A DNA stretch of 64,000 nucleotides, from NCBI RefSeq assembly GCF_003023845.1, contig NZ_PYFT01000001.1, positions 5,766,001 through 5,830,000 of the forward strand, in the 5' to 3' direction. The stretch is from Adhaeribacter arboris. GTDB taxonomy: Bacteria; Bacteroidota; Bacteroidia; Cytophagales; Hymenobacteraceae. Below the pieces are notes generated by a model. It did no database searches and had not been told where the DNA came from. It saw only the letters and a program-made list of their open reading frames with translations. Every line of letters starts with the position of its first letter. The stretch's first letter is position 1. Shown here piece after piece: positions 1,506 to 15,801 of this stretch. The position numbers were made by a program, and so were the translations under genes.

Positions 1506-2843
1506 TTAAACAAAAGTAAGCGGCGTTCTTTCTTTCCATTTGCCGCGGGTAAAATCCGGGAAATCAACCGGGCGGCATTTGCCCGCCACCGAAGCTTCGG
1601 TAATCGGGGAGATGGCGCTGCTGGTAACAGAATCATACACATCCCAATCCGGCATTTTATTTTCCCGCAGGGCCATTACCAACCGGTGCCAGACAATGGG
1701 CGTTTGATTGGTACTGCCCCCGTGGCCGCGGGTAGCGCCACCTTTCCGGGGGGGCGGGTTGTAGTTTTTGGTCATGGGGTGTTCGTATTCTTTTAAATAC
1801 TTATCCGCTGGTTCCCACTGGTCGTGTTGCGGGCTCAAACCTTCGATGTAAATGCGTTTGGAATCTTTGTCGCCTAAATATACCCCTTTGGTACCTTGTA
1901 CCCGGTAGCTTTCCCGGGGGTGCGGAGTGTGGGTGTCATGGTTCAAAGTCATCATTTTGCCGTTTACTGTCCGGATGAGCGTGGCATTATAATCGCCCAG
2001 CTTAATGGGCATCTTGGCGTATTTTGAATCCGGACCGTACATTTTGGCGGCGTACTCATTGATCATCACGGATTTGGAGCTCATCGAAACCAAGAAATCA
2101 ATGCGGTCGCCGTGGTTAATATCCAGGGCTGGCAGCATTTTGTTCATCGGGTGGTCCGGGTACAAGTTACCGTTGCGATCTACGGCGTGCTGCAAACGCC
2201 AAGGTTCTTCTTCGGGGTCAAATTTTACGCGCCGCAGGTCGTGGATATAACCCGTTTCGGCGTGGATGATATCTCCCAGCACGCCCTTCCGGATCATGTT
2301 TAAAACGGCGGGTTCGCCAAATCCTTCCAGACCAATAGTAGCCCATTTTCCGGTTTTTTCGTAGGTTTCCACTATTTCCCAGGCTTCATCCACGGTTAAT
2401 ACAATCGGTACTTCGCACACCGCGTGCTTGTCGTGGCGCATGGCCGCTAAACAAATGGGAGCGTGAATGTCCCAGGGGGTGGAACAAATAACGGCATCTA
2501 ATTTATGATCGGAGCAAACTTTTAAATAATCCGTGTTGCCGCTGTACAGTTTCGGTTTGGGGCGCCCCGACTCCTTGACCCACGCGCCGGCCCGTTCCAG
2601 GCGCGAAGTGTTAATATCACAAACCACCGGTACTTCAACGCCCTCCATGCCCAGGGCGCAATCCAGGTGGTAAGAACCCCGGCCGCCCACGCCGATAAAG
2701 CCTAAGCGAATCGGTTTATTGGCCGCTTCTTTTTGCGCGAAGGTTTGCTGGGGTAAGATCAAGCCACCACCTAAAGCCAGGCTACCTAAGGCCGTGGTGG
2801 ATAATTTCAGAAAGTTTCTGCGATCAAAATTGTTATTGCCCAT
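1506..2843 (-). CDS. Tat-exported Gfo/Idh/MocA protein, GH109-like (third copy)
   Basis: 445 residues. The N-terminus carries a twin-arginine signal (DRRNFLK, residues 7-13, then a hydrophobic stretch), so it is probably exported folded with bound nucleotide. A Rossmann motif GVGGRG lies at 51-56, followed by STPWDIHAP near 121-129. The LYPDH motif puts a His at 231, equivalent to the catalytic-His region of GH109 NAD-dependent alpha-N-acetylgalactosaminidases. The C-terminal part has RGHGGS, WDVYD and PDFTRGKWK, also GH109-like. It is more diverged than the two upstream paralogues (for example YPDHPMN where they have YPxHGLG), so its substrate may differ. It is the last gene of the array and is followed by a terminator. 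The family call is strong; activity on GalNAc glycosides is inference from family resemblance and context. Confidence 0.75.
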   Translation of the reverse strand: MGNNNFDRRNFLKLSTTALGSLALGGGLILPQQTFAQKEAANKPIRLGFIGVGGRGSYHLDCALGMEGVEVPVVCDINTSRLERAGAWVKESGRPKPKLYSGNTDYLKVCSDHKLDAVICSTPWDIHAPICLAAMRHDKHAVCEVPIVLTVDEAWEIVETYEKTGKWATIGLEGFGEPAVLNMIRKGVLGDIIHAETGYIHDLRRVKFDPEEEPWRLQHAVDRNGNLYPDHPMNKMLPALDINHGDRIDFLVSMSSKSVMINEYAAKMYGPDSKYAKMPIKLGDYNATLIRTVNGKMMTLNHDTHTPHPRESYRVQGTKGVYLGDKDSKRIYIEGLSPQHDQWEPADKYLKEYEHPMTKNYNPPPRKGGATRGHGGSTNQTPIVWHRLVMALRENKMPDWDVYDSVTSSAISPITEASVAGKCRPVDFPDFTRGKWKERTPLTFV

Positions 2844-2867
2844 AGTTGTTCTGTTAAAAAATTAGTC

Positions 2868-3977
2868 TCACTTATTTTTACTGGTTTTAAGCATCCCGAA
2901 TAATTTCAAAGCATTTTTGTTGTAAATTTTTTCCAGCGCTTCATCCGGCAGGTACAATCCGTAAATCATCCAGCGGCCCTGCAAATGATGGCCCTCCGAG
3001 GGGTCGATGTATTCATCACTGGTTTCTAAAAAACGGTAGTAAATCCGGTAAGCTTCGGCGTTGGGTGGGGTGTCGGTGCCAAAGAGAATGCGGTCCTGGT
3101 GTTTAATCATAAACTTGCGAGCGGTGTAGGGCTGGCGACCTAATTCGCTGATGCGGGCGCTCATTTCCACGTAAAAATTCGGGTAAGTCGCCAGCCAGTT
3201 CGAAACTTTGCCCAGTTCTTCCGGTAAATTTCCCATGTGCGCTCCCACAAAAATGGTGTTGGGGTGCCGGGCCATTACCCGGTTGCGTTGGGCCAGAATT
3301 TCTTCTTTGGGTGGGTATTCGGGTCCGTAGGCCCAGTTGGGATGGCTGCCCAATTCGTCGTACCGTTCGTTAAATTGATCGACCGGCGTAAAAAAAGCTT
3401 TGGGATCCGAAACGTGCATGACAATCGGAATACCGAGTTCGCCGCACTTGGCCCAAATGGGATCAATGCGCGGATCGTCCACGGGTACTATTTTGCCGCT
3501 TTTATCTTTCACGGTTAAGCCCAGCGATTTAAAAATTTTCATGCCCCGGGCACCCAACTGCACGGCTTCTTCTAATTTTTTCGCTTCTTTTTGCCCAAAG
3601 TTGGGCTCGTCGATTTTACTGAAATCGGGGCTGAAAAAAACCAGGAATCTTTCTTTCGATACTTTTTGTGAGGCGGCTAAATGTTCTTTATAAAAATTTT
3701 CGGCGGAGCGGCCATCTAAACTAACGCACTGCCAAACGCCGGCTTTATCCATTTCCTCCAAATATTTAGCGGTATTTTTTAATTCGCGCAAATGATTGTG
3801 GATGTCAATCACCGGAAATTTGGGTTTCATGATTTTGGTTTCCGCCACTACCATCTGACTTTTGGGTTGCCAATCCAGCAGCTTTAAATCTTTGGTTTGG
3901 GCCAGCAAAACGTTGGCCAGCAGCAAGAGCGCGGGGGCGAGTAAATAGCGGCCGTTAAAAAGAAAAAACTTTACCAT
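2868..3977 (-). CDS. Secreted amidohydrolase (Amidohydro_2 type)
   Basis: 369 residues with a Sec-type signal (hydrophobic residues 12-25, then LAQ), so periplasmic. The TIM-barrel metal ligands are visible: HNH at 60-62, a His in IVMHVSDP, a His in VGAHMGN and the terminal Asp in FGTDTPP. This places it in the Amidohydro_2 (PF04909-like) group of metal hydrolases and decarboxylases. It starts 24 bases after the GH109-like gene ends on the coordinate map and lies 13 bases from the next amidohydrolase, consistent with one transcript. It is clearly related to, but more distant from, the other two amidohydrolases of the array. The substrate is unknown. Given the neighbours, a sugar lactone, N-acyl sugar or other product of the GH109 reaction is possible, but nothing in the sequence fixes this. 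Confidence 0.7.
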   Translation of the reverse strand: MVKFFLFNGRYLLAPALLLLANVLLAQTKDLKLLDWQPKSQMVVAETKIMKPKFPVIDIHNHLRELKNTAKYLEEMDKAGVWQCVSLDGRSAENFYKEHLAASQKVSKERFLVFFSPDFSKIDEPNFGQKEAKKLEEAVQLGARGMKIFKSLGLTVKDKSGKIVPVDDPRIDPIWAKCGELGIPIVMHVSDPKAFFTPVDQFNERYDELGSHPNWAYGPEYPPKEEILAQRNRVMARHPNTIFVGAHMGNLPEELGKVSNWLATYPNFYVEMSARISELGRQPYTARKFMIKHQDRILFGTDTPPNAEAYRIYYRFLETSDEYIDPSEGHHLQGRWMIYGLYLPDEALEKIYNKNALKLFGMLKTSKNK

Positions 3978-3990
3978 AGGACGTTGGCGG

Positions 3991-5100
3991 TTACAATTTT
4001 GCTTTGGTAAAACCAGGAAGCCATTTCTCGGCGTTTTTACAGTACAGCTTATCTACCACGGTCCGGGGCAGGTGCAAGCCTTTGTATGTGCTCTTATTGC
4101 TGTTAGTCAGCTGTTCGTCGGTCACAAAAAACTTCCAATCGCGCAGCCAGGCATTGTGGGTGTTTTGTCCAATCGCGGTGGGGTCGTTGTTATTATTGGT
4201 GGTGATATCGGAACCGTACAATATCCGGTCCTGGTACTTGATAAAGAAATCGTGCACTTTCGGCCAGTCAGTAACGGCCTGGTGCTGCAAATGCGCGATG
4301 CGGGCGGCAATATCTACGGCCAGGTTGGGGTATTTATCCAGGCGTTTGGCAATTTCGTCGACGCTCCACTCCAGGCTGGCCAGGTGCACACTCACTACTT
4401 TTAAATCGGGGTGTTTGGCCAGCATGTGGTCGCGGGCTTGCATCTGGGCTTCGTAACTCGGGTACTCCGGGTGCAAATACATGTGGTACTGGGGGTTTTT
4501 GCTGTAGTACCGCTTATTGCCTTCCACCGACATTTGGTCCAGGGGCAGCCAGCAATCTTTGGGCTCGCCCTGGTGACTAAGTAAGGTAATTTTGTTTTTA
4601 GCGATGTAATCGAAAACCGGATCAAACTTCGGATTATCGATCATCACGAATTTCCCATCTTTATCTTTCAACTCCATGCCGATGTTCTTCCACACTTTCA
4701 CCCCGATGGCTCCCTGCGCGAAGGAATTTTTTAAATAAGCAATGGTTTCTTTTTGCCAGTTATCCTGGTTAAAATTTTTGACCGAAATAGTAGTGGCGTA
4801 ATGCAGTTGCTTCGGAAATTCTTGCGCGTGCTTTACCGCTAAAGCTTGTTGTTCGGTGATAGGGGGGGAACCGGGAAAAAGATAACCGTTAATATCCAGC
4901 AGGTGAAAATTATCCTCTTGCGCTTGTTTAATAAAGGTGGCCTCCGGCGTATAAACGTGCACGTGGGTATCGTACTTTTTCACCGTTTTAAAATCTTCCA
5001 CTGAATAATAATCCGGGGCTAGCTTCGCCTCCTTTTTACCCGCGGGAGTGCCGTATAAGCCAGCAACCAGGATGGTAAGATAAACGAGTTTAAGATACAT
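3991..5100 (-). CDS. Secreted amidohydrolase (Amidohydro_2 type), paralogue of 7015-8169
   Basis: 369 residues. The N-terminus (MYLKLVYLTILVAGLYG) is a signal peptide without a lipobox Cys, so a soluble periplasmic enzyme is likely. Metal ligands: HVH at 46-48, a His in LLSHQGEP, a His in VSVHLAS and an Asp in YGSD. It shares long blocks with the amidohydrolase at 7015-8169, such as GAI(G/A)VKVWKNIG, HMYLHPEYPS and FFIKYQDR. The two therefore arose by duplication together with their GH109 neighbours. It follows the GH109-like gene at 5276-6688. The fold and metal dependence are solid; the substrate is unknown. Confidence 0.7.
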   Translation of the reverse strand: MYLKLVYLTILVAGLYGTPAGKKEAKLAPDYYSVEDFKTVKKYDTHVHVYTPEATFIKQAQEDNFHLLDINGYLFPGSPPITEQQALAVKHAQEFPKQLHYATTISVKNFNQDNWQKETIAYLKNSFAQGAIGVKVWKNIGMELKDKDGKFVMIDNPKFDPVFDYIAKNKITLLSHQGEPKDCWLPLDQMSVEGNKRYYSKNPQYHMYLHPEYPSYEAQMQARDHMLAKHPDLKVVSVHLASLEWSVDEIAKRLDKYPNLAVDIAARIAHLQHQAVTDWPKVHDFFIKYQDRILYGSDITTNNNNDPTAIGQNTHNAWLRDWKFFVTDEQLTNSNKSTYKGLHLPRTVVDKLYCKNAEKWLPGFTKAKL

Positions 5101-5275
5101 CTTGAAATCTTTTAGTGGTCACGGTTAGGCGGTTTTTGGCCGCTAGAATGAAGAATTTAAAAAAACATTTCGCCAACCCTCCTTTGAAAAAGCGAGGACT
5201 AACTTCCTCCGCGCTTTTGCCTCAGCGGTAAATAAACCGGGAGCAACGCAATGGCGTACCGGACGAAGCAAACAG

Positions 5276-6688
5276 TTACAACTTCACGTTGGTGTTGCCG
5301 CCTTGGGCCAGTAGTACATCCACGGGCTTGTTGTTTTTCCAGGAACCGTTGGTGAAATCGGGTATATCTACCGAATTGGAACGTTTGGCCACGGATTGTT
5401 CACTCAAAGGCCCAATGGCACTCCAAGCGGCGGCATCATACACGTCAATATCCAGGGGTAAGCCGTTGCGTAAACAATCTACCAGGCGCCAGTTCATCAA
5501 AAAATCCATGCCGCCGTGGCCGCCCACTTGCTTGGCCAGTTCGCCTACTTTTTTTACAATGGGAGGTTGGTATTTGGCTTCCAAATCTTTCATTTCCTGC
5601 TCCGTTAACCAATCTTTATGGCCCACCGAAACTTTGCCCGGCAATGGGTATTTTTGCGCGGCGCCTTTGGTGCCGCTAATGAGTTGGATGCGGGAATACA
5701 CACGGGGCGAGGATACGTCGTGTTGCAGCATAATGGAGCGGCCTTTGGCGGTACGAATCGTGGTGGTATTCATGTTGCCCCGGAACGATTTATTGGCGTA
5801 GGGTTTAAAAAAGTCGTCGGTGGCGGCTAGTTCTTTGGCCTTGGGGCCCATCATAAAATCGTTGCTCGACATGGCCACCAGGTAATCCATTTTGTCGCCC
5901 CGGTTAATGTCCATTACCTGCGCAACCGGTCCTAAACCGTGGCCGGGGTACAAGTTACCGTTGCGGCTGGCGTTTTGCTTGAGCCGCCACATGTCGTAGT
6001 AGCCGTCTTTTTTAAAATTTAGCTCCATCAGGTTATGAATGTAAGCCCCTTCGCCGTGGATAATATCCCCGAAGAAACCTTGGCGGGCCATGTTCAGCGT
6101 TAGTAATTCAAAAAAGTCGTAGCAGCAATTTTCCAGGTACATGCAATGCTTCTTCGTTTTCTCGGAAGTTTCGACCAATTGCCAGCATTCATCCAGGGTA
6201 ATAACGCCGGGTACTTCAATGGCTACGTGTTTGCCTTGCTCCATGGCGTATACCGCCATAGGCGCGTGCAAATGCCAGGGCGTAGAAATATAGACTAGGT
6301 CCACATCTTTCCGTTCGCACAGCTTTTTCCATTCGTTTTCTTTGCCGGAGTACATGGCTGGATTATGGTTGGCGCCTAGTTTTTCTTTCACGGCGCTTAC
6401 TTTTTCAGGCCGAATATCGCACAAAGCCGTAATTTGGACGCCTTCTACTTTGCTGGACCGGTAAGCATGCCCCGGCCCGCGCTGCCCTAAGCCAATAAAT
6501 CCCATCCGGACGGTTTCCAGCTTCGGCGCACCGTAGCCCGACATGTTAAATTTCTGGTTGCGCGGTGGAGCCGGCTCTAAATTACCCAGTACCTTGGCAC
6601 TGCTAACGGTGGGGGTAGCCAAGCCCGTCAGAAGGCCGGCTCCAACCAAGCCCGTAAATTTTAAAAAATCGCGGCGGTTGTCTTTCAT
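5276..6688 (-). CDS. Tat-exported GH109-like Gfo/Idh/MocA protein (second copy)
   Basis: 470 residues from the ATG at 6688. A longer in-frame start at 6754 exists but adds 22 residues unlike the paralogue, whereas MKDNRRDFLKFTG matches it, so 6688 is preferred. Twin-arginine signal NRRDFLK at 4-10 without a lipobox Cys; NAD-binding GLGQRG at 66-71; STPWHLHAP; LYPGHGLGP containing the GH109-type His; GGHGGMDF; and a PDFTNGSWK tail. These match the NAD-dependent alpha-N-acetylgalactosaminidases of GH109 (Elizabethkingia type), in which the sugar is transiently oxidised at C3. Its close paralogue lies at 8314-9726. Expected role: release of terminal alpha-GalNAc in the periplasm. Family assignment is from motif memory; the substrate is inference. 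Confidence 0.75.
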   Translation of the reverse strand: MKDNRRDFLKFTGLVGAGLLTGLATPTVSSAKVLGNLEPAPPRNQKFNMSGYGAPKLETVRMGFIGLGQRGPGHAYRSSKVEGVQITALCDIRPEKVSAVKEKLGANHNPAMYSGKENEWKKLCERKDVDLVYISTPWHLHAPMAVYAMEQGKHVAIEVPGVITLDECWQLVETSEKTKKHCMYLENCCYDFFELLTLNMARQGFFGDIIHGEGAYIHNLMELNFKKDGYYDMWRLKQNASRNGNLYPGHGLGPVAQVMDINRGDKMDYLVAMSSNDFMMGPKAKELAATDDFFKPYANKSFRGNMNTTTIRTAKGRSIMLQHDVSSPRVYSRIQLISGTKGAAQKYPLPGKVSVGHKDWLTEQEMKDLEAKYQPPIVKKVGELAKQVGGHGGMDFLMNWRLVDCLRNGLPLDIDVYDAAAWSAIGPLSEQSVAKRSNSVDIPDFTNGSWKNNKPVDVLLAQGGNTNVKL

Positions 6689-7014
6689 GGTATGTATAAA
6701 TAGTTGTTCCTTATGAGTTGTTCGTTGTTCGGCATATATGATTTTACAAATCAATAGATTAATCCAACCTATTCTTCTGGAAATTTCCGCCCAATTGCCT
6801 GGTTTAGAAACAGGGCGAATAAAGTTTATTGAGTTGAGCTTTTTTTTAATTTTAGAATAAAAAGCGGGTTAAACTTTGCAGGTAAGTTTTTGAGCGATAT
6901 AGCTAGTTCTAAGTACTTCGACATAATTTATTCAGCTTAAGCTTTGTATTAATTCGCTGCCTATTATAGTTTTATGGATCTAACAACGAGTAACGAGTAA
7001 CTAACAACTCCTTA
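6689..7014. other. Intergenic region inside the minus-strand array
   Basis: About 325 AT-rich bases between the second GH109-like gene and the upstream amidohydrolase. This is the largest gap in the array, so an internal promoter for the second and third modules is possible. I see no clear -7 box, hairpin or small gene. Confidence 0.4.
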
Positions 7015-8169
7015 TTAACTGGCTTGCTTGATGCTGGGAAACCATTTTTCGGCGTTGTGCAGGTAAATTTTATCCACTACTTCGCGGGGCAGATGTAAGC
7101 CGTTAAATTCTTTTTCCACCTTGGGGGTTTTCATTTTTTCGCCGGAAGTAAAAAATTTCCAGTGCCGCAGCCAATTTGCGTGAGCATCAATACTTACCTG
7201 TTCCGGCGACTTCGCGCCGGTTACGCCTTCGTCGGTTGCATAAATCAGGCGGTCCTGGTATTTAATAAAAAAGTCGTGTACTTTCTGCCAATCCGTTACA
7301 GCCTGGTATTGGAAGTGCGAAATCCTTTCGGCTAAATCTACCGCCATGTTGGGGTACTTATCCAGTCTTTTGGCCAGTTCGTTCACGTCCCATTCCAAAC
7401 TAGCTAAATGCGCGCCCACAAACCGCACGTTCGGGTGTTTTTCTAACATGTGATCGCGGGCCCGAATGATCTCTTCGTGCGAAGGATATTCCGGGTGCAG
7501 GTACATGTGGTATTGCGGGTGCTCACTGAAGTACTTCTTATCACCGGCCACCGTCATTTTATCCACCGGAAGCCAGGCGTTACGCGGCTCGGCCAGGTGC
7601 CCAATTAAGGTAATGTTGCTTTTTTCAATTAAATCAATGATCGGGTCGAATTTGGGGTCGTCGATCATCACGAATTTACCATTTGCATCTTTCAACTCCA
7701 GGCCAATGTTTTTCCAGACCTTCACGGCAATCGCGCCCTTGGCGAACGAATCTTTTAAATAAGCCAGCGTTTTTTGTTGCCAGTCGGGTTGGTTGAAACC
7801 TTCCAGGGAAAAAGTGGTGGCGTACAGGATATCGTTCGGTTTATCTTTTACCAGGCGCAGGGCCACTTCTTGTTGCTGCGCTACGGGCGGCGAAGAAGGC
7901 GAAGCCACGTTAATATTTAAAAATCGGAAATTATCTTTAGCTGCTTGGTTGATGAAAATCGTATCGTACAGCTTAATGTGGACGTGCGAATTAAATTTTT
8001 TAATTTTCGCAAAATCCTCGGGACCGTAAAATTCTTCCGTTGCATTACTGGCAACCGCGTTGTTATTGGCGCTTGCTTTTTCGCTTTTGCCCTGGGAACA
8101 ATTCTGCAAGAAAAATGAAAGAGAACAAAGAAGGACACTTAATTGGATGGACTTTAACAAGTTTTTCAT
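7015..8169 (-). CDS. Secreted amidohydrolase, probable lipoprotein (Amidohydro_2 type)
   Basis: 384 residues. The signal peptide ends in SFFLQNC with Cys24 followed by a polar, low-complexity linker (SQGKSEKASANNN). This suggests a lipoprotein, although Asn before the Cys is unusual. The barrel begins with HVH at 62-64. Further ligands are the His in LIGHLAEP, the His in VGAHLAS and the Asp in YATD. The mature part is a close paralogue of 3991-5100. It sits next to the GH109-like gene at 8314-9726, which also has a lipobox, so this pair may be membrane-anchored together. Catalysis is by a metal-activated water; the substrate is not known. Confidence 0.7.
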   Translation of the reverse strand: MKNLLKSIQLSVLLCSLSFFLQNCSQGKSEKASANNNAVASNATEEFYGPEDFAKIKKFNSHVHIKLYDTIFINQAAKDNFRFLNINVASPSSPPVAQQQEVALRLVKDKPNDILYATTFSLEGFNQPDWQQKTLAYLKDSFAKGAIAVKVWKNIGLELKDANGKFVMIDDPKFDPIIDLIEKSNITLIGHLAEPRNAWLPVDKMTVAGDKKYFSEHPQYHMYLHPEYPSHEEIIRARDHMLEKHPNVRFVGAHLASLEWDVNELAKRLDKYPNMAVDLAERISHFQYQAVTDWQKVHDFFIKYQDRLIYATDEGVTGAKSPEQVSIDAHANWLRHWKFFTSGEKMKTPKVEKEFNGLHLPREVVDKIYLHNAEKWFPSIKQAS

Positions 8170-8313
8170 TCGCTAGGCTTTTCGGGTGAATAGTAATTTT
8201 CGGGGTGTGCTTTCCTTTTAAAGCCACCCGGTTACAGGTTTTTCAAGTGGCAAGCTGGGCAGATAAAGCATAAATCAGGGTCAGTTCTAAAAAAGGAAAG
8301 TACCTTTTAAACC

Positions 8314-9726
8314 TTACAGCTTTATTTCGGTGTTGCCGCCTTTTACCATGGATATATCCACGGGGGAGTTGGTTTTCCAACTGCCCGCCGTAAAATCTGG
8401 CACATCCACGGAATTAGAGCGATTGGCAACGGAAAATTCACTCAAAGGGGCCATGGAACTCCAAAGCACGCCATCGTACACGTCCATGTCCATGGGTAAA
8501 CCGTTGCGGAAACAGTCTATAATGCGCCAGTTCATTAAAAAATCTTTACCCCCGTGCCCACCTACTTGCTTGGCTAATTCGCCTACTTTTTTAACAATGG
8601 CGGGTTGGTATTTTTCTTCTAACGCTTTTACTTCGGCTTCCGGCAGCCAATCTTGGTGGCCGGTAGCAATGCGGCCCGGCAACGGAAATTTTAACGCCGA
8701 CGCTTTGGTACCACTCACCAAATGAATCCGAGAATACACGCGGGGCGAGGTGACGTCGTGTTGCAGCATAATCGTTCGGCCGCTGTTCGTGCGGATAGTA
8801 GTGGTGTTCATGTTGCCCCGGAAAGTTTTGTTGGCGTAGGGTTTAAAAAAGTCGTCAGTAGCAGCTAATTCTTTGGCTTTCGGTCCCATCATAAAATCGT
8901 TGCTCGACATGGAAACCAAGTAATCCATTTTATCGCCCCGGTTCACATTCATTATTTGGCAAATAGGCCCTAAGCCATGAGTCGGATATAAATTTCCGTT
9001 TCGGTTGGCATTCTGTTTCAACCGCCACATATCTTGGTACTGGGTTTTCGAGAAATTCATGTCGAAGAGATCATGAATGTACGCGCATTCGCCGTGAATA
9101 ATTTCGCCAAAAAATCCTTGCCGAACCATGTTCAGGGTCATTAATTCAAAAAAGTCGTAACAGTTATTTTCCAGCATCACGCAATGCTTGCGGGTGCGTT
9201 CGGAGGTTTCCACTAGCTGCCAGCATTCTTCGAGGGTAGTAGCCGCCGGAATTTCGACGCAAACGTGTTTGCCTTGTTCCATAGCATATAGCGCCATGGG
9301 GGTATGCAAGTGCCACGGCGTAGCAATATAAATAACGTCGATATCCTTCCGGTCGCAAACTTTCTTCCATTCTTCTGCACCACTCGTGTATATTTCCGGC
9401 TTGTGGCCCAGGCCTTTCATGCGTTTTTGCGCCGCCGTGATGCTTTCGGGCCGCAAATCACACAAGGCTTTTATTTCGACGCCACCCAAAAGACTGGCAT
9501 TGTTTAAATGCCCGGGACCACGACTACCCAAGCCAATAAAACCCAGCCGTACCGTTTCCATGCCGGGAGCGGCGTAGCCAGTCATGTTGAATACTTGTTT
9601 CCGCTCTTTTTTAGAAATAGTACTCGCCGCCGAACTAACTTTTATTTCTTTCGGAGAACATCCGGTTAATAAACCCGCTCCCGCCAGACCGGTAAATTTT
9701 AAAAAATCTCTTCGGTTATTTTTCAT
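8314..9726 (-). CDS. GH109-like Gfo/Idh/MocA protein, Tat lipoprotein (first copy)
   Basis: 470 residues. NRRDFLK at 4-10 is a twin-arginine motif, and the hydrophobic stretch ends in LLTGC (Cys23), a good lipobox, so it is a predicted Tat-exported lipoprotein. GLGSRG at 65-70 binds NAD(P); TPWHLHTP follows near 137-144; LYPTHGLG gives the GH109-type His at about 250; the end has GGHGGKDF and PDFTAGSWK. Residues from about 267 to 320 (around SSNDFMMGPKAKELAATDDF) are almost identical to the paralogue at 5276-6688. It is the first GH109-like gene after the aldolase. Likely periplasmic alpha-N-acetylgalactosaminidase or related NAD-dependent glycosidase; the exact substrate is inference. Confidence 0.77.
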   Translation of the reverse strand: MKNNRRDFLKFTGLAGAGLLTGCSPKEIKVSSAASTISKKERKQVFNMTGYAAPGMETVRLGFIGLGSRGPGHLNNASLLGGVEIKALCDLRPESITAAQKRMKGLGHKPEIYTSGAEEWKKVCDRKDIDVIYIATPWHLHTPMALYAMEQGKHVCVEIPAATTLEECWQLVETSERTRKHCVMLENNCYDFFELMTLNMVRQGFFGEIIHGECAYIHDLFDMNFSKTQYQDMWRLKQNANRNGNLYPTHGLGPICQIMNVNRGDKMDYLVSMSSNDFMMGPKAKELAATDDFFKPYANKTFRGNMNTTTIRTNSGRTIMLQHDVTSPRVYSRIHLVSGTKASALKFPLPGRIATGHQDWLPEAEVKALEEKYQPAIVKKVGELAKQVGGHGGKDFLMNWRIIDCFRNGLPMDMDVYDGVLWSSMAPLSEFSVANRSNSVDVPDFTAGSWKTNSPVDISMVKGGNTEIKL

Positions 9727-9849: not shown

Positions 9850-10683
9850 TTACTGACTTACTAATTCATTCTTTACAATTTCTAATTTTTCTTTTACCAG
9901 GTTGGTTACGGCCTGAATAGCGGGTGGAAAAACTTTGCGCAAGTCAATTTCGTCGCTTTTTAACAGGTCGGCCTTTAGCTGGTACATGAATATATTTTTA
10001 ATTTCCGTAGCCAGATTAATTTTACAAATACCCCGTTGAATAGCTTCTTGCAGCATATTGCCGGCTATACCGGAACCGCCGTGTAAGACCAACGCCGCAT
10101 CGGTAACCGCATGTATCTGGCTCAATCTTTCCAAATCCAGTTGGGGTTCTTCGGTGTAAAAACCATGTGCCGAGCCAATGGCTACTGCCAGCGCATCAAT
10201 GCCGGTTTCCTGCACAAAAGAATGGGCCTCATCTGGTTCCGTAAAGCCCATTTTTTCTTTGGATTGACCTAGTTTGGCCACGTATCCTAGTTCTGCTTCT
10301 ACATTGGCGCCGTACTTTTGGGCCAAAGCAACTACCCGTTGCGTTAAGGCAATATTTTCCTGAATGGGTTTTTCACTGGCATCAATCATCACCGAATCGA
10401 AACCAGCGTCTAAGCACTGGGCTACTAAATCGTAAGAATCCGAATGATCTAAATGCAGCCAACCTTCTACGCGATGCTCTTGCAAGGCGCTGCGGGCCAT
10501 TTTTACGGCCACCGGCAAGGTCATGTAATCGATGGAACTTTTGGTTAATTGTAATATAATAGGTTGCTGCATACTGGAGGCAGCTTCCAGTATGCCCTTG
10601 AGGGTTTCGTAATTGTAAAAATTGGTGGCCAGTAACGAAGCTTTTTTGGCTTGCATTCTCTGTAATCTCTCTTGTAGTGTCAT
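9850..10683 (-). CDS. Class II tagatose/fructose-bisphosphate aldolase (GatY/KbaY type)
   Basis: 277 residues from the ATG at 10683. A longer frame reaches 10797 but would overlap the kinase gene by 113 bases, whereas MTLQERLQRM begins one base past the kinase stop and matches the usual family start. Zn2+ ligands are visible: His80 in HLDHSD, His173 in GSAHGFY and His201 in LHGGSG. The GGSG loop binds phosphate. The enzyme cleaves tagatose-1,6- or fructose-1,6-bisphosphate to dihydroxyacetone phosphate and glyceraldehyde-3-phosphate. Its place after agaS and two PfkB kinases favours tagatose-bisphosphate, the last step of galactosamine breakdown. The aldolase family is certain; the preference for tagatose is from context. 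Confidence 0.85.
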   Translation of the reverse strand: MTLQERLQRMQAKKASLLATNFYNYETLKGILEAASSMQQPIILQLTKSSIDYMTLPVAVKMARSALQEHRVEGWLHLDHSDSYDLVAQCLDAGFDSVMIDASEKPIQENIALTQRVVALAQKYGANVEAELGYVAKLGQSKEKMGFTEPDEAHSFVQETGIDALAVAIGSAHGFYTEEPQLDLERLSQIHAVTDAALVLHGGSGIAGNMLQEAIQRGICKINLATEIKNIFMYQLKADLLKSDEIDLRKVFPPAIQAVTNLVKEKLEIVKNELVSQ

Positions 10684-10684
10684 G

Positions 10685-11629
10685 TTAGAGGGCATATCCA
10701 AATTTTTCCTGAGCAATTCTTTTGATTTTGTTATAGTCGGTAAAAGCCGTGGTACCGCCCGACTCTGTGGTTGAAATTGCGCCGGTGAGATTGCCAAATC
10801 GCTGACATTCTTCTAAAGAGGAGCCTTGAATGTATTTGTATATGAAGCCGGCGTTAAAGCTGTCGCCGGCGCCAATAGCATCCACTACCTCTTTATTTAA
10901 AAACGACTCCATGGGCAATACTTTGCCTTGACACCAGGAAACGGAACCTTTATTTCCCATTTTAACCAAAACTAAATGGGCGTTTTTGGGTAAAGTGGCC
11001 AGCGCCTCCGATAGAGTGTTCGTTTGCGTTAATCGTAATAGTTCTTTTTCGTTGGGTAGAAATACATCTACCAAAGGAAGTAATTCCGTCAGATTGAGAT
11101 CCCATTTTTCTTGCGGGTCCCATTGGGTATCGAAAGAGGTAGTTAAACCGAGTGACTTAGCCAGCTGAAATAACGTAGGAAGCCCATTTTTTAAACCGGG
11201 TTGTAGAAAGTAAGAGGAAAAATGCAGGTGCCTGGCGCGAGCCAAATGTTCCGGTGAAATATCGGTTAACCGCAACTCGTCCATTGCTCCCGGGTGGGTT
11301 ACCATGGCCCGGTCCTCGTCGAAATTTAAGACTACGGTGAGGCCGGTGTTTAAAGCAGGACTTTGCAGGATTAAGCTAGTATCTACGCCTTTATTCTGCA
11401 GGCTTTGTAAAACAACTTTCCCAAACTGATCTTGGCCTATTTTACCGATGAAAGAAACTTTAGCCCCTAAGCTGCTTAAGTTACTGGCAAATATTGCCGA
11501 AGAACTGCCCAGCGTCAAGGTCATTTGGTGCGCTAACTTTTCCTTCCCGATTTCCGGAAAAGAATGCATCTGGTTTAAAACCAAATCCACGTTTAGTTCT
11601 CCCACTACAATTACATCTATATCTTTCAT
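10685..11629 (-). CDS. PfkB-family sugar kinase
   Basis: 314 residues. It opens with DVIVVGELNVDLVL and the second PfkB signature is GAGDSFNAG near residue 252, whose Asp is the catalytic base. It is ribokinase/fructokinase-like rather than 1-phosphofructokinase-like, so it probably phosphorylates a free sugar. In this operon a galactosamine or N-acetylgalactosamine kinase would fill the step before AgaS; that is inference. It lies 12 bases from the upstream kinase gene and one base from the aldolase start, so translation is tightly coupled. Confidence 0.8.
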   Translation of the reverse strand: MKDIDVIVVGELNVDLVLNQMHSFPEIGKEKLAHQMTLTLGSSSAIFASNLSSLGAKVSFIGKIGQDQFGKVVLQSLQNKGVDTSLILQSPALNTGLTVVLNFDEDRAMVTHPGAMDELRLTDISPEHLARARHLHFSSYFLQPGLKNGLPTLFQLAKSLGLTTSFDTQWDPQEKWDLNLTELLPLVDVFLPNEKELLRLTQTNTLSEALATLPKNAHLVLVKMGNKGSVSWCQGKVLPMESFLNKEVVDAIGAGDSFNAGFIYKYIQGSSLEECQRFGNLTGAISTTESGGTTAFTDYNKIKRIAQEKFGYAL

Positions 11630-11641
11630 CGTTTTCTCGCT

Positions 11642-12583
11642 TCAGGAAACAGAATTGGTTACACTCGTTTTGGCGGACTTATTTATAAGCACTTGTTTTT
11701 TTAAAATTTCTACATCTGATTGATAAAGCAACCCCAATTCGGGACGGATGCAGTTGGCGGCCCCACAAGCCACTGCCAGTTGAGCCACTGCTTGAATATC
11801 TAGTTCCCGGTTAAAAGCTACGGCTAAGCCCGCCAAGAGGCAATCGCCGCTACCTACCGCGCTGTACACATCTTCTACCGGGCATTGAGCATGTATTAAT
11901 TCATCGCCTGCAACCAAGTATAAACCATCCGCCCCTGCTGTGACAGCCGCATAGGTACATTGCTTGGCCAGAAGAAAAGCTATTTGTTCCGGTGATTCTT
12001 CTTCGAATAATTTTTGACCTTCCCGACGATTTATATGCACCGAAAAAGGTTTTTGAATTAAGGCTTGATTCAACTGTTCACCGGCACAATCCAGAAAGAT
12101 TTTTTTCCCCGCTTTATTTGCCAATGAAACTAATTGCGCATAAGCATCCACTGGTGCTCCTTTTGGCCAAGAACCACTCATCGTAATACAATCGGCTTTT
12201 GGTAAGATTTGAATAAAAGTGTTTCGAAAGCTTTCGAAATCTGCCGACGAGATAGTCGGCCCACTTCCTAATAGCTCCGTATCGTCAAAGTAAGTATCTG
12301 ATTTAAGGATTAAACATGTTCGGGTCCAATCTTTTAATTCTGGTCCATAACACTCAATACCTTTAGATTCACAATTTTCCTTAACCCATTGGCCCGTTGG
12401 GCCGCCCCAAAATCCAAGTAGCATTACTTGCTCCTCTAATTCCGCAACTGCTAATGCTACGTGCACCCCTTTGCCGCCCGGAAACCGCTCTTCTTTTGTA
12501 ATGCTATTGGCTTGTCCGGCTTGTAACGTGTTTAACCAGGCATACATATCAATAGAAGGATTTGGGCACAGGCACAGGATCAT
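11642..12583 (-). CDS. 1-PfkB-family hexose-phosphate kinase, likely tagatose-6-phosphate kinase
   Basis: 313 residues. The start MILCLCPNPSID and the GGKGVHVA motif are typical of the 1-phosphofructokinase/LacC branch. GSGDCLLAG near 242 carries the catalytic Asp. This branch adds a second phosphate to fructose-1-P or tagatose-6-P. Next to an AgaS homologue and a class II bisphosphate aldolase, the tagatose-6-phosphate kinase role fits best and would give tagatose-1,6-bisphosphate. It begins one base after the agaS-like gene stop. 1-Phosphofructokinase is the main alternative. Confidence 0.78.
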   Translation of the reverse strand: MILCLCPNPSIDMYAWLNTLQAGQANSITKEERFPGGKGVHVALAVAELEEQVMLLGFWGGPTGQWVKENCESKGIECYGPELKDWTRTCLILKSDTYFDDTELLGSGPTISSADFESFRNTFIQILPKADCITMSGSWPKGAPVDAYAQLVSLANKAGKKIFLDCAGEQLNQALIQKPFSVHINRREGQKLFEEESPEQIAFLLAKQCTYAAVTAGADGLYLVAGDELIHAQCPVEDVYSAVGSGDCLLAGLAVAFNRELDIQAVAQLAVACGAANCIRPELGLLYQSDVEILKKQVLINKSAKTSVTNSVS

Positions 12584-12584
12584 A

Positions 12585-13847
12585 TCAGGAAATTATTTTT
12601 GCTGCTTTCGTATTGGAAGATGCATTCGCCATGGCTGGAAGATCAAAGGAATAAATGGTTACTCCCTGCACTACCCGGGTGATAGTGTCGGAGACGGACG
12701 GAGAATCTGGCTTTAGTTTTAAATGCAATGCTTTAAAGAAGCCAAGCATCTGGGCCGGCATAACACTACATACAGCTAATAACTCTTCCTCTATTTTATC
12801 TGCTCCGTCGGAAAGCTCAATCAAAAGATCTACTTCTAAATTAGAATCTTTCTCTGCCGATTCAATAATTCCAATTCGGTATAATCCTTTTTCTCCATCA
12901 TTTATGTTATTGATTAGATCAACTTCATATTGATGGACATATTCCCTGTTCGAAAATAAATAGACCAGTAACGTATGAGTATCTATAACCGCTTTGGGAC
13001 CGTGCCGGAAACCTAAGAAAGAATCATGTTTGCAGATTATATTGCCATCTGTTAGCTCCTGTACCTTTAAGTCCGACTCCCGGGCTGTCCCGTACAAAGG
13101 ACCAGAACCTAAAAAAATAGCCCGGGTAAAGTCTAAAGAAGCTACCTCCTGAAGCTTAGTGGTATACTTTTTTAAAATATTCTTGCCGTATTCCGCTAGC
13201 TTTTGTACTTGATATTTAAGATCATCTATAAAAGAAAGGCGAGAAATTAATAGTCCGGCCAATAACATAGAAGAGAAACTTCCGGTCATGGCTAAACTTA
13301 GATCATTGGCTTCGGGAGGTAAAAGAAACACCGCCGTTTGATTTTGACTTTTATTCGTTACCAAATCACCAGATGGATTGCAGGTAATTATCAAATGGTA
13401 AATTTTGCGGCAAATTTTATCGGCTAAAACAACAACTGCCTTGCTTTCTGGGCTATTGCCCGATCTAGCGAAAGATATTAGTAAGGTGGGTACATCTTGC
13501 TGGAAGTATCCTTCCGGATGAGAAACCAGATCGGTGGAGGCGATAGCACGCGTTCTTTTTCCGGAATTCCGTTGAAAAGGTCCTTCCAGTACAGTGCCGA
13601 TAAAAGCGGAAGTACCGGCACCCGTTAAAATTACCTCTAAATCAGGGTGAGCATAAGCTTCTTCCAGAAAGCTCTCCAAATAATATCGCTTTTGGGCAAC
13701 CAAATTCCAAGTATCTAACCAAAGTGTTGGTTGCTCTGAAATTTCCTTAGCTGTAAAAATGGCTCCTTGGTCTTCTAGTTCCGCCAAACTGTAATTCAGA
13801 TACTCCTTTGTTTCCTTTGGTTCGGCTACGCCCGTAATCTTAATCAT
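12585..13847 (-). CDS. agaS: AgaS-type SIS-domain D-galactosamine-6-phosphate deaminase/isomerase
   Basis: 420 residues with two SIS domains. Recognisable blocks are LTGAGTSAF, SFARSGNSPES (sugar-phosphate-binding Ser loop), the CNPSGDL stretch, LPPEANDLSLAMT and FLGSGPLYG. These match the AgaS branch of sugar-phosphate isomerases. The enzyme converts galactosamine-6-phosphate to tagatose-6-phosphate with loss of ammonia. It is the first gene of the ten-gene minus-strand array, directly divergent from a DeoR-family regulator. The family call is confident; the substrate follows from the family and the downstream kinase and aldolase. Confidence 0.85.
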   Translation of the reverse strand: MIKITGVAEPKETKEYLNYSLAELEDQGAIFTAKEISEQPTLWLDTWNLVAQKRYYLESFLEEAYAHPDLEVILTGAGTSAFIGTVLEGPFQRNSGKRTRAIASTDLVSHPEGYFQQDVPTLLISFARSGNSPESKAVVVLADKICRKIYHLIITCNPSGDLVTNKSQNQTAVFLLPPEANDLSLAMTGSFSSMLLAGLLISRLSFIDDLKYQVQKLAEYGKNILKKYTTKLQEVASLDFTRAIFLGSGPLYGTARESDLKVQELTDGNIICKHDSFLGFRHGPKAVIDTHTLLVYLFSNREYVHQYEVDLINNINDGEKGLYRIGIIESAEKDSNLEVDLLIELSDGADKIEEELLAVCSVMPAQMLGFFKALHLKLKPDSPSVSDTITRVVQGVTIYSFDLPAMANASSNTKAAKIIS

Positions 13848-14118
13848 AAAAAATGTGTTTCATTTCCGTTCGATGTAAACATACATATTTATTATTTCCT
13901 TGTCAAATACTATTTAAATATTTTTATTATCTTTCGAAATCTTTTATCAAAGTTATTTTATCTTTTCAACATTACATGTACAAAGCCACTCGCTCATACT
14001 TAGAAAAGAATTATTAAAAGTTTTAGATAGCTAACCAAAGTTTTATTTGTATTTAAATTTCGAAAAAGGAATATTGCGAAGTATACTATCTTTCGTAAAC
14101 CTTGTAATAAATAGAATA
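13848..14118. promoter_or_regulatory. Divergent control region between agaS and the DeoR-type regulator
   Basis: This AT-rich spacer must hold both promoters. It contains repeated (A)TCTTTY motifs: ATCTTTCGAA at 13929-13938, ATCTTTTATC about ten bases later, ATCTTTTCAA near 13960, and ATCTTTCGTA at 14088-14097 just before the regulator start. TTTC-rich direct repeats are typical of AgaR/DeoR-family operators, so these are the best candidates for the binding sites. The TATCTTTC at 14087-14094 is also close to the Bacteroidota -7 box TAnnTTTG. Confidence 0.45.
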
Positions 14119-14898
14119 ATGTTAGAGTTAGATAAAAAATCAACGGTAAAGCGCCGAGCTTTTATTTTAGAGAAGTTGGAAACCGATGGGCAAGTAGATG
14201 TTAATACTTTAAGTAGTGAGCTACAGGTTAGTGAAGTCACGATTCGTAATGACTTGAGCAAACTGGAAGAAAAGAATATGCTTATCCGGGCCCGAGGCGG
14301 TGCTATAAAATTAGACCGAGTAGGAATTGATTTTGCGCTTTCGGATAAAAACAAGCAGCACTACGAAGAAAAGAAAAACATTGGTCAGGCAGCGGCTCAA
14401 CTAGTGGAAGAAGGTGATACCATTATTTTAGATTCTGGTACCACTACTTTAGAAATAGCTAAAAATTTACAAAAGTTTACGGATTTAACTGTAATTACCA
14501 ATGCCTTGAATGTGGCTAACCAATTAGCCGAGCATAAGAATGCTAATGTAATTATTCCAGGAGGCTTTTTAAGGAAAAATTCTTTATCGCTTGTAGGATC
14601 TACGGCTGAGGAAAGTTTTCGAAATTATTTCTGTGACAAGTTATTTCTGGCGGTAGATGGCCTTAGTACCACGCATGGGCTATCAACTCCGAATGTAGAG
14701 GAAGCTCATTTAAACCGAATAATGATTCAAATTTCTAAAAAAGTTATTGTGGTGGCGGATTCTAGTAAATTTTTGAAAAGAAGCTTCGCTTTTATTGCCC
14801 CTATAACAGAAATAGATGTGGTGGTAACGGATGCCGGAATTTTACTGGAAGAACAGAAAAAACTGGAAAACATGGGCATACAAGTAATTATAGCCTAA
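14119..14898 (+). CDS. DeoR/AgaR-family transcriptional regulator
   Basis: 259 residues from the ATG at 14119 (MLELDKKSTVKRR). An upstream in-frame ATG at 14047 would add 24 residues unlike the family and run through the putative operator, so it was not chosen. An N-terminal winged helix has the DeoR signature VSEVTIRNDLSKLEEKNML and RARGGA. A sugar-phosphate-sensing domain follows with DSGTTTLEIA, VITNAL, GGFLRKNSLSLVG and VVADSSKF. Family members are usually repressors released by a sugar phosphate. It faces away from the AgaS array, so it is most likely the local repressor, sensing tagatose-6-P or GalN-6-P. Confidence 0.85.
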   Translation: MLELDKKSTVKRRAFILEKLETDGQVDVNTLSSELQVSEVTIRNDLSKLEEKNMLIRARGGAIKLDRVGIDFALSDKNKQHYEEKKNIGQAAAQLVEEGDTIILDSGTTTLEIAKNLQKFTDLTVITNALNVANQLAEHKNANVIIPGGFLRKNSLSLVGSTAEESFRNYFCDKLFLAVDGLSTTHGLSTPNVEEAHLNRIMIQISKKVIVVADSSKFLKRSFAFIAPITEIDVVVTDAGILLEEQKKLENMGIQVIIA

Positions 14899-14941: not shown

Positions 14942-15801
14942 ATGACGAGACAACCTTGGGTGCTTTATACTTTTATAACTACTCTGTTTTGGGGGGTTTG
15001 GGGAGCCTTTATTGAAGTTCCTGAAAAAGCTGGCTTTCCGGCTACTCTTGGTTATTCCGTCTGGGCCATTACCATGATTCCTTGTGCAATAGTAGCCCTC
15101 TTAAATAGTAATTGGCAACTGGAATATGATACCCGATCCATATTTTTGGGTTCGGCGGTAGGTTTGCTCGGAGCGGCCGGACAGTTAATTTTATTTCAGG
15201 CTTTACGTACCGGCCCGGCCTATATAGTATTTCCTTTTATTTCCCTTTTTCCGGTAGTTACTGTTTTTCTTTCTGCCCTATTTTTAGGGGAAAGAACTAC
15301 CAGAAAACATTGGATTGGCATTATTCTATCGCTAATTGCTATATTTTGCCTTTCGTACCAAGAACCAAATAATAAAATGTAACCGGTTCTACTTGGTTGT
15401 GGCTTTCCATAATTGTTTTTTTCATGTGGGGCATACAAGCTTATGCTATGAAATTCTCTAATAACACCATGAAGGCAGAAAGCATTTTTTTCTATATGAT
15501 GCTAACGGCAGTTTTAATGATTCCCGTAGCTGTGCTAATGACTGATTTTTCGCAGAAAATTAATTGGGGAATAAAAGGCCCTTATTTAGCGGGTTTGATT
15601 CAAGTATTTAATGCTATTGGTGCCCTTACCTTGGTCTATGCTTTACGATATGGCAAAGCAATAATTGTAGTACCTATCACAGCGCTTGCCCCGGTAATTA
15701 CCATTATAATTTCCCTGATTTTATACGCGGTATTTCCCCACTGGATAGTTTTAACGGGGATGGTTTTAGCCGTAATTGCTATTTATATATTAGCTGAATA
15801 A
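14942..15801 (+). pseudogene. EamA/DMT-family transporter split by a one-base frameshift
   Basis: Two frames together give one ten-helix EamA transporter. The first (14942-15382) ends YQEPNNKM-stop. The second, offset by one base, is open from 15376 and reads NVTGSTWLWLSIIVFFMWG to 15801. Adding a single A to the AAAA run at 15374-15377 joins them without loss, giving about 286 residues, a normal length for the family. The first half has helices plus the GPAYIVFPFISLFPVVTV loop; the second has GKAIIVVPITALAPVITI, the paired EamA repeats. Position after the DeoR-type gene suggests sugar uptake (GlcU-like). It may be a true null, a sequencing or assembly error, or less likely a slippage site. 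Confidence 0.8.

Follow-up and report, generated by a model that had tools for sequence, protein, structure and literature searches.

Gene content of the locus

The window (the whole stretch of Adhaeribacter arboris DNA analysed, 64,000 nucleotides long) contains at positions 1506-9726, on the minus strand, six genes, three encoding GH109-like proteins (G1-G3) and three encoding Amidohydro_2 proteins (A1-A3), in the transcription order G3-A3, G2-A2, A1-G1. All six products score above the Pfam cut-offs, in agreement with the first-pass annotation, which had read them as GH109/amidohydrolase pairs that might form a system of their own. The pairs are real but do not stand alone: they continue a same-strand operon, probably for GalNAc/galactosamine, in the single-strand run agaS-PfkB1-PfkB2-KbaY-G3-A3-G2-A2-A1-G1. 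That annotation had left out the four GalNAc-catabolism genes immediately upstream (9850-13847), as well as two further genes, one for a DeoR regulator (14047-14898) and one, split, for an EamA permease (14942-15801). The features are:

14942..15801, plus strand: EamA/DMT-type permease gene, in two pieces owing to a frame change (tblastn against the L106 gene; EamA name by eye)
14047..14898, plus strand: DeoR-family regulator, AgaR-like, divergent from agaS (ORF; family name by eye)
12585..13847, minus strand: agaS-type GalN-6-phosphate deaminase/isomerase (TIGR02815 368 bits, curated cut-off 529; SIS domain above cut-off)
11642..12583, minus strand: PfkB1, LacC-like hexose-phosphate kinase (TIGR03168 222.7 bits, cut-off 216.4; lacC TIGR01231 134 bits, below cut-off)
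10685..11629, minus strand: PfkB2, PfkB-family sugar kinase (PF00294 179.6 bits)
9850..10695, minus strand: KbaY/GatY-like class II ketose-bisphosphate aldolase (PF01116 280 bits; TIGR00167 227.9 bits, cut-off 215.6)
8314..9726, minus strand: G3, GH109 with predicted Tat export (PF21252 148.9 bits; TAT_signal)
7015..8169, minus strand: A3, Amidohydro_2 with predicted export, candidate GalNAc deacetylase (PF04909 45.8 bits)
5276..6688, minus strand: G2, GH109 with predicted Tat export (PF21252 135.5 bits)
3991..5100, minus strand: A2, Amidohydro_2 with predicted export (PF04909 50.8 bits)
2868..3977, minus strand: A1, Amidohydro_2 with predicted export, second subfamily (PF04909 101.5 bits)
1506..2843, minus strand: G1, divergent GH109-like protein (PF21252 168 bits)

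The best NCBIfam matches correspond to the three enzymes by which an aga operon is recognised, namely AgaS, a tagatose-6-phosphate kinase and an aldolase in one operon, all of them below the strict cut-offs (AgaS 368 against 529 bits, lacC 134 against 410, GatY 248 against 383). PfkB1 is likely the tagatose-6-phosphate kinase. PfkB2, which we propose to be an amino-sugar kinase, has homologues in 25 of the 29 AgaS neighbourhoods compared (28 loci and the window), including all 18 in which an A-type Amidohydro_2 gene (hereafter A) lies directly behind KbaY. No PTS component was found among the ten cluster genes scanned with Pfam. The DeoR gene has an 87% identical homologue adjoining the aga operon of locus L106. 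Two candidate regulator motifs near agaS, TTTCGAAA and GGAAATGAAAC, are not more frequent in the window than expected by chance, and so give no sign that DeoR controls the GH109 and A genes. The two tblastn pieces of the EamA gene meet at 15358-15376 and show 78% and 82% identity to the unbroken counterpart in L106, which has only weak NCBIfam transporter matches and was labelled EamA by eye; we propose that this permease is an amino-sugar importer.

The GH109-like and Amidohydro_2 proteins

The Glyco_hydro_109_C domain (PF21252) is found in G1 (168 bits), G2 (~136) and G3 (149) well above its Pfam cut-off of 27, and the Gfo/Idh/MocA Rossmann domain (PF01408) exceeds its own cut-off in all three. 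For G2, the longest ORF begins at a TTG at 6754, but translation more likely starts from an ATG at 6688; the profile scans used 5279-6685, one Met short of the likely ORF. Relatives of G3 with solved structures include 6t2b and 2ixa. The latter carries the motifs EVxGA, ENxCY and NRNGxLYPTHG, which we take to be GH109 active-site motifs with catalytic roles. In G3 the Glu, Tyr and YPTHG positions are all retained, G2 reads YPGHG in place of YPTHG, and most of the motif region is kept in both; G1 has no Tyr aligning with that of ENxCY, and YPDHP instead of YPTHG. Against the NCBIfam equivalog for the glycoside 3-dehydrogenase BT_2158 (score 750), G1, G2 and G3 reach only 41.9, 30.2 and 37 bits. 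Tat export, which the first-pass annotation had ascribed to every GH109-like protein, is predicted by Pfam/TIGR01409 for G2 and G3, whereas G1 has a twin-arginine stretch recognised by eye and matches no model.

The three amidohydrolases match PF04909 (A1 101.5, A2 50.8 and A3 45.8 bits; cut-off 26.4) and have hydrophobic N-termini (A2 and A3 by sequence analysis, A1 by eye), consistent with the secretion previously suggested. A1 is ~30% identical to A2/A3, and its homologues adjoin G1-type GH109 genes in L036 and L040. The putative metal ligands of A3 (H62, H64, H191, H254 and D313) are invariant in 61 of 61 aligned rows, and the same HxH/H/H/D residues in all 13 rows of a second set. No NCBIfam model, including NagA TIGR00221, matched A1, A2, A3 or the A of L049 at E<=0.01, and a search of the A3 profile against solved structures gave no relative at E<=0.001. 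In the A3 structure model (pLDDT 92.2), the predicted fold is about equally distant (9-15% identity) from decarboxylases, hydratases and other hydrolases; among solved structures the nearest folds belong to decarboxylases and hydratases or have no known function, and lactonases were also matched. The first-pass annotation had named placement in a well-defined, unrelated decarboxylase clade (COG2159 would be the group in question) as a refuting outcome; these comparisons give no such placement, nor do they set A clearly apart from decarboxylases. We know of no proven deacetylase in the Amidohydro_2 Pfam family.

The idea that two of the pairs are recent duplicates finds no support. G2 and G3 are 69% and A2 and A3 52% identical, whereas A3 shares 71% and 66% of its residues with the two Adhaeribacter aerolatus copies and G3 shares 87% with a copy from Adhaeribacter. 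Since A3 and G3 are closer to these copies than to their paralogues, both duplications look, from these identities, older than the split from other Adhaeribacter.

Linkage of A to aga operons and the missing deacetylase

Among 296 genomes of the phylum, a close relative of A occurs in 16 and AgaS in 18; AgaS is present in 14 of the 16 A genomes and strong A in 14 of the 18 AgaS genomes, and in all 14 genomes carrying both they lie less than 6 kb apart, start to start. These counts, whose association P values ignore phylogeny, are based on 27 A places of at least 165 bits (leaving out weaker rows, including the second fragment G119:C78:16371 and A1/AmiB-like rows) and 18 AgaS rows of at least 150 bits (that of G147 partial; weaker rows left out). 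A class-wide AgaS survey of 395 genomes gave four strong matches, all already in the set, and thus added no independent loci. In 18 of the 29 AgaS neighbourhoods A lies directly behind KbaY, the intergenic distance being -4 to +14 bp in 15 of them. Among the other 11, L086, L087 and L089 have no A; in L038, L039, L043, L046, L092, L154, L175 and the window, the gene order differs, KbaY was not found or A was missed in the choice of ORF.

Co-location of GH109 and Amidohydro_2 genes elsewhere is above chance: GH109 lies within 10 kb of A in 12 of the 16 strong-A genomes (within 30 kb in 14 of 16) and is the same-strand neighbour of A in 20 of 79 named loci, selected for A similarity. Because this linkage holds elsewhere, the refuting outcome named by the first-pass annotation, an absence of co-location, did not come about. 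Where A is missing from an AgaS genome, as in four cases, the 30 kb on either side of AgaS contain no GH109 gene. Neither AgaS/KbaY nor GH109 lies near A in 38 of the 79 loci, within the stretch examined, which in some cases reaches a contig end. A also occurs outside aga operons: of 15 loci with a NagX-like gene, 13 have A directly beside it, and acetylation of amino sugars has been proposed for NagX (PMC9007349).

The usual deacetylase of the pathway, NagA/AgaA, was not found in this genome (G000, 99.85% complete; best match 29.8 bits). NagA of at least 150 bits is present in five of the 20 genomes examined (G158, G162, G171, G194 and G203); it is absent from 11 of the 14 genomes with both AgaS and A, this one included, and present in three. 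The aga DeoR gene of G203 has beside it, ~11 kb from AgaS, a pair of NagB-NagA type whose 177.7 bits fall short of the NagA cut-off, and in G171 a Tat-type NagA lies ~21 kb from AgaS; NagA is near A also in L108, L117 and L124. The control set was the class of the gammaproteobacterial MAG behind L175, in which four of 312 genomes have a strong AgaS. Three of their aga clusters contain NagA, in genomes without A; the fourth (G640, L175) has an A lipoprotein and a 36-bit NagA piece that lies inside no NagA gene. Both genes are missing from the aga loci of G009 and G147, which shows that such an operon need not include a deacetylase. PIG-L proteins, an alternative source of the activity, were not preferred, the five genes in the genome being unlinked to the operon (the nearest ~170 kb off); PIG-L genes were seen by eye near A in L154, L182 and L041.

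By elimination from this operon context, with the usual NagA absent and A in the operon, A is most likely the missing GalNAc deacetylase. Counting against this assignment are the nearest solved folds, the loci where A lacks AgaS/KbaY and GH109, its NagX-like neighbours, the NagA genes near A or AgaS, the aga loci lacking both A and NagA, and the PIG-L alternatives. That A might instead be a decarboxylase or hydratase, a mere passenger in carbohydrate loci, would agree with the decarboxylases among its closest folds and with its occurrence as a single gene in Algoriphagus-type contexts, and is made highly improbable by its tight coupling to KbaY and by AgaS accompanying it in nearly all A genomes.

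Substrate of A and a proposed GalNAc pathway

The 18 A proteins encoded behind KbaY comprise eight without a signal sequence, predicted to be cytosolic, and ten with one, predicted to be exported. When 32 A proteins, taken from loci that match AgaS or KbaY, are placed on a tree, at least three switches between signal-bearing and signal-less forms are implied. These repeated switches argue for a non-phosphorylated substrate, and A, being predicted on both sides of the membrane, probably uses free GalNAc before phosphorylation. A cytosolic AgaA-like GalNAc-6-phosphate deacetylase whose exported paralogues took another role would fill the operon position of the missing step, and in L175 a BadF/NagK-like kinase (81.5 bits; NagK cut-off 370) lies between agaS and A. 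Yet the A of L175 itself bears a lipoprotein signal, and GalNAc-6-phosphate is not expected where the ten exported proteins reside, so that we regard this option as quite improbable.

Alternatively, A could deacetylate glycan-bound GalNAc, after which the divergent GH109-like proteins would free galactosamine, in the manner of FpGalNAcDeAc/FpGalNase of Flavonifractor plautii. The same-strand GH109 neighbours of A, the absence of one active-site Tyr in G1 and the precedent of GalNAc removal by a deacetylase and a galactosaminidase, documented in parts of PMC11762096, agree with this scheme. We nevertheless judge it decidedly unlikely, as a cytosolic A in the same operon position would meet only free or imported sugar, and G2 and G3 retain most of the GH109 motif region. 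The first-pass annotation had offered three reactions, deacetylation of GalNAc, opening of a lactone and action on a 3-keto intermediate, of which the operon context favours the first. An oxidised sugar (3-keto derivative or lactone) produced by Gfo/Idh/MocA, GMC or DUF1080-type enzymes would be attacked elsewhere than at the acetamide; lactonases are among the fold matches of A3, and genes for GMC oxidoreductase, AP_endonuc_2, Gfo/Idh/MocA and 3-keto-disaccharide hydrolase proteins lie, in L036, L041, L043 and L148, close to genes for exported proteins of the A, A1 or AmiB type (named by Pfam for one of each type, otherwise by similarity or eye). Such a substrate is unlikely, since the compact operons L047-L053 have no such oxidoreductase between agaS and the cytosolic A, and neither a lactone nor a keto acid is formed at any step of the aga pathway. 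Relatives of the A1 and AmiB types may likewise be deacetylases, or may have other derivatives as substrates.

We therefore lean, somewhat beyond even chances, towards a GalNAc-utilisation locus in which A-type Amidohydro_2 deacetylates GalNAc before phosphorylation and replaces AgaA/NagA, a reading derived from sequence. Tat-exported GH109 would, judging from its family, free alpha-GalNAc in the periplasm. A, to which the reaction is assigned by elimination, would then remove the acetyl group, in the periplasm here and in the cytosol for the signal-less clade predicted in other aga operons. Galactosamine may enter through the EamA permease, whose gene is split here, and be converted to GalN-6-phosphate by a PfkB kinase. 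By family, AgaS would deaminate and isomerise this to tagatose-6-phosphate, a LacC-like kinase or the host phosphofructokinase would make tagatose-1,6-bisphosphate, and the KbaY-type aldolase would cleave it. A would thus be a non-orthologous stand-in for AgaA/NagA, and deacetylation would come before phosphorylation, the opposite of the sequence in E. coli. The "two-enzyme periplasmic system" first suggested is accordingly too narrow a description, as A would be part of an aga pathway and many operons encode a form predicted to stay in the cytosol. More tentatively, and with slightly less than even confidence, A may be the first Amidohydro_2 amino-sugar deacetylase, acting on free GalNAc and switching repeatedly between cytosol and periplasm within the same operon, with deacetylation before uptake or phosphorylation.

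Published pathway reconstructions (PMC5583593, PMC4694137) let agaA decide whether a genome can use GalNAc; in one of them, among the gut genomes analysed, no phyla other than Actinobacteria, Firmicutes and Proteobacteria had the pathway. If A is the deacetylase, agaA-based rules overlook a route for GalNAc in this phylum, a testable function is found for a large and uncharacterised family of amidohydrolases, and GH109 gains a natural processing partner.

The F. plautii enzymes FpGalNAcDeAc and FpGalNase act on the A antigen and, to our knowledge, belong to other protein families and have no aga operon. Leyn et al. reportedly described in 2012 AgaA-II of Shewanella, a non-canonical GalNAc-6-phosphate deacetylase in place of AgaA. 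The gene name AgaA-II stands in a table of PMC2996990, and the F. plautii pair, as presented in excerpts of PMC11762096, has the two-enzyme use of GalNAc deacetylation in common with what is proposed for our locus. According to parts of PMC12017989, the GlcNAc1A deacetylase OngB is, like the proposed A, an amidohydrolase-superfamily enzyme with a non-phosphorylated amino sugar substrate; it differs in being a D-aminoacylase-like subtype V protein with a Cys/His/His site, whereas A is an Amidohydro_2 protein with HxH/H/H/D. Among the matches listed from the open-licence literature, no title or abstract opening describes a GH109-amidohydrolase pairing. The earlier statement that GH109 has no described partner is contradicted by the Bacteroides thetaiotaomicron PUL BT4240-50, where, as proposed here, a periplasmic GH109 is tied to GalNAc metabolism; it works with a GalNAc-specific kinase, the key enzyme, and the main text mentions no "deacetylase" or "amidohydrolase" (PMC11992087). 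With the aga pathway of E. coli and Streptococcus (AgaA-AgaS-AgaZ/LacC-KbaY), as outlined in parts of PMC4694137 and PMC12118421, our locus shares, judging from its best family matches, AgaS, the tagatose-6-phosphate kinase type and the aldolase, and the E. coli pathway also has a DeoR-type regulator like the one beside this locus. In contrast to these pathways, here an Amidohydro_2 gene would take the place of NagA/AgaA, and GH109 and EamA-type genes are attached.

Aga genes beside the GH109/amidohydrolase block

Six genes of the window, recognised from open reading frames and Pfam matches above cut-off, carry Glyco_hydro_109_C (G1, G2 and G3) or Amidohydro_2 (A1, A2 and A3, beside them). The first-pass annotation, which read these three pairs as a possible undescribed two-enzyme periplasmic system, passed over agaS, two PfkB kinase genes, a KbaY/GatY-like aldolase gene, and DeoR and EamA-type genes next to them.

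Features of the block and its upstream neighbours
1506-9726, minus strand: G1-G3 and A1-A3
9850-10695, same strand: KbaY/GatY-like aldolase gene
Between aldolase and agaS, same strand: LacC-like PfkB kinase gene and second PfkB kinase gene
12585-13847, same strand, directly upstream: agaS
Divergent from agaS: DeoR regulator gene (by eye and similarity)
14942-15801, adjoining DeoR: EamA-type permease gene, interrupted by a frame change at 15358-15376

As identified by family profiles, agaS, the PfkB kinases and the aldolase would encode the downstream steps of GalNAc/galactosamine catabolism. A closely similar locus in Adhaeribacter aerolatus contains DeoR, AgaS, LacC, PfkB2, KbaY, two close relatives of the A3-type amidohydrolase (hereafter A, the proposed GalNAc deacetylase), A1 and then three GH109-type genes. 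Unsplit EamA/DMT-type homologues, each a single open frame, flank aga genes in loci L106, L112, L144, L151, L159, L175 and L177.

G2 and G3 share 69% identity and A2 and A3 52%, with A1 at ~30% to both. The solved structures nearest to G3 are the GH109 proteins 6t2b and 2ixa; G1 diverges more and is devoid of the Tyr at the position aligned to the ENxCY motif. The whole genome encodes a fourth GH109 outside the window and seven Amidohydro_2 proteins in total. Another exported paralogue, 60% identical to A3 (L004 5312-6475; G000:C1:3637332-3638447), is isolated among a sulfatase, a GH65-like and a DUF1080-like gene (names assigned by eye).

Co-occurrence of A, AgaS and GH109

Among 296 genomes evenly drawn across the phylum, 84 encode GH109, 18 AgaS (>=150 bits) and 16 strong relatives of A. 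All 16 A genomes possess GH109, located <=10 kb from A in 12 and <=30 kb in 14, and 14 of them possess AgaS, in every case <=6 kb from an A (hypergeometric P = 1e-18 for the A-AgaS association, uncorrected for phylogeny). In the four genomes that possess AgaS but no strong A, GH109 is absent <=30 kb from AgaS; two (G158 and G282) encode a more distant AmiB-type amidohydrolase ~18 and ~8 kb from AgaS, respectively, and the others (G009 and G147) have no A relative whatever at E<=0.001. The aga operons of G009 and G158 (L086 and L087), lacking A and GH109, bear DUF4832-type genes (assigned to DUF4832/DUF4874 by Pfam in L086 and by eye in L087) that possibly act in the breakdown of a galactosamine polymer, for which no deacetylase would be required.

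We also inspected 79 named loci, many ending at contig ends; being selected by A similarity, they do not provide unbiased rates for GH109 (31 loci), AgaS (13), GH109 or AgaS/KbaY (41), or A and GH109 adjacent on the same strand (20 loci, 21 pairs, gaps of 9-164 bp). Multi-copy GH109, several amidohydrolase types and a GMC oxidoreductase occur together in L036, L040, L041, L043 and L146, and genome G203 has eight GH109 matches. In L097, L098 and L100, GH109 homologues 59-64% identical to G2/G3 lie amid enolase-, DHDPS- and short-chain dehydrogenase-type genes (by eye), which suggests that some GH109-like proteins serve a different pathway.

Operon position of A and the usual deacetylase family

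A lies just 3' of KbaY in 18 of 29 AgaS rows (28 loci plus the window), with a gap of -4 to +14 bp in 15 of these 18. A signal sequence is present in ten of the 18 proteins and absent in eight (L047-L053 and L130). For the 32 A proteins whose loci have AgaS or KbaY hits, the tree requires at least three changes of localisation; eight were counted over all 112 leaves, a figure that wrong start codons could swell. Since a phosphorylated substrate is not expected in the periplasm, free GalNAc would be the simplest common substrate of cytosolic and exported A.

No NagA-type deacetylase was found in the A. arboris genome (99.85% complete; best match 29.8 bits). At >=150 bits, NagA occurs in five of 20 genomes checked and is absent from 11 of the 14 genomes with AgaS and A, the exceptions being G162, G171 and G203. 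It shares the A neighbourhood in two of these three, as a NagB-NagA-type pair adjoining the aga DeoR gene (G203, L189 3749-5452) and as a Tat-type NagA amidohydrolase together with NagB (G171, L042 12048-13364), a predicted second deacetylase type within two A-bearing clusters. NagA is also near A in L108, L117 and L124. In the class of the gammaproteobacterial MAG G640, the source of locus L175, four of 312 genomes have strong AgaS; three carry a NagA-family gene inside the aga cluster and no A. The fourth, G640, has AgaS and a BadF/NagK-like kinase next to an A lipoprotein that shares 51% identity with A3; its only NagA match is a 36-bit piece, and no NagA gene was found at that spot.

Conflicting neighbourhoods and known pathways

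Some gene contexts, the NagA genes near A among them, are at odds with A acting as a deacetylase. A NagX-like gene directly adjoins A in 13 of the 15 named NagX-bearing loci, and NagX has been proposed to acetylate periplasmic glucosamine (PMC9007349), an activity that looks opposed to deacetylation; one such neighbour scored 115 bits against NagX_SO_3504 (cut-off 480). NagX-like transmembrane acetyltransferase homologues stand beside exported A and GH109 in L107, L113, L115, L116, L119, L120, L121, L124, L128, L143 and L169, in hosts including Daejeonella, Segetibacter and Ferruginibacter. Some exported amidohydrolase genes have Gfo/Idh/MocA, 3-keto-disaccharide hydrolase, GMC oxidoreductase and AP_endonuc_2 genes nearby, a hint that part of the family is involved in the chemistry of oxidised sugars. 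The case for a deacetylase is strongest for A within operons and least secure for A1, AmiB and copies that stand alone.

An AgaA-II was reportedly described by Leyn et al. in 2012. Reviews and reconstructions ascribe the deacetylation step to AgaA, or to NagA instead (PMC12118421, PMC5583593, PMC4694137). In B. theta, GH109 is used together with a GalNAc-specific kinase (PMC11992087).
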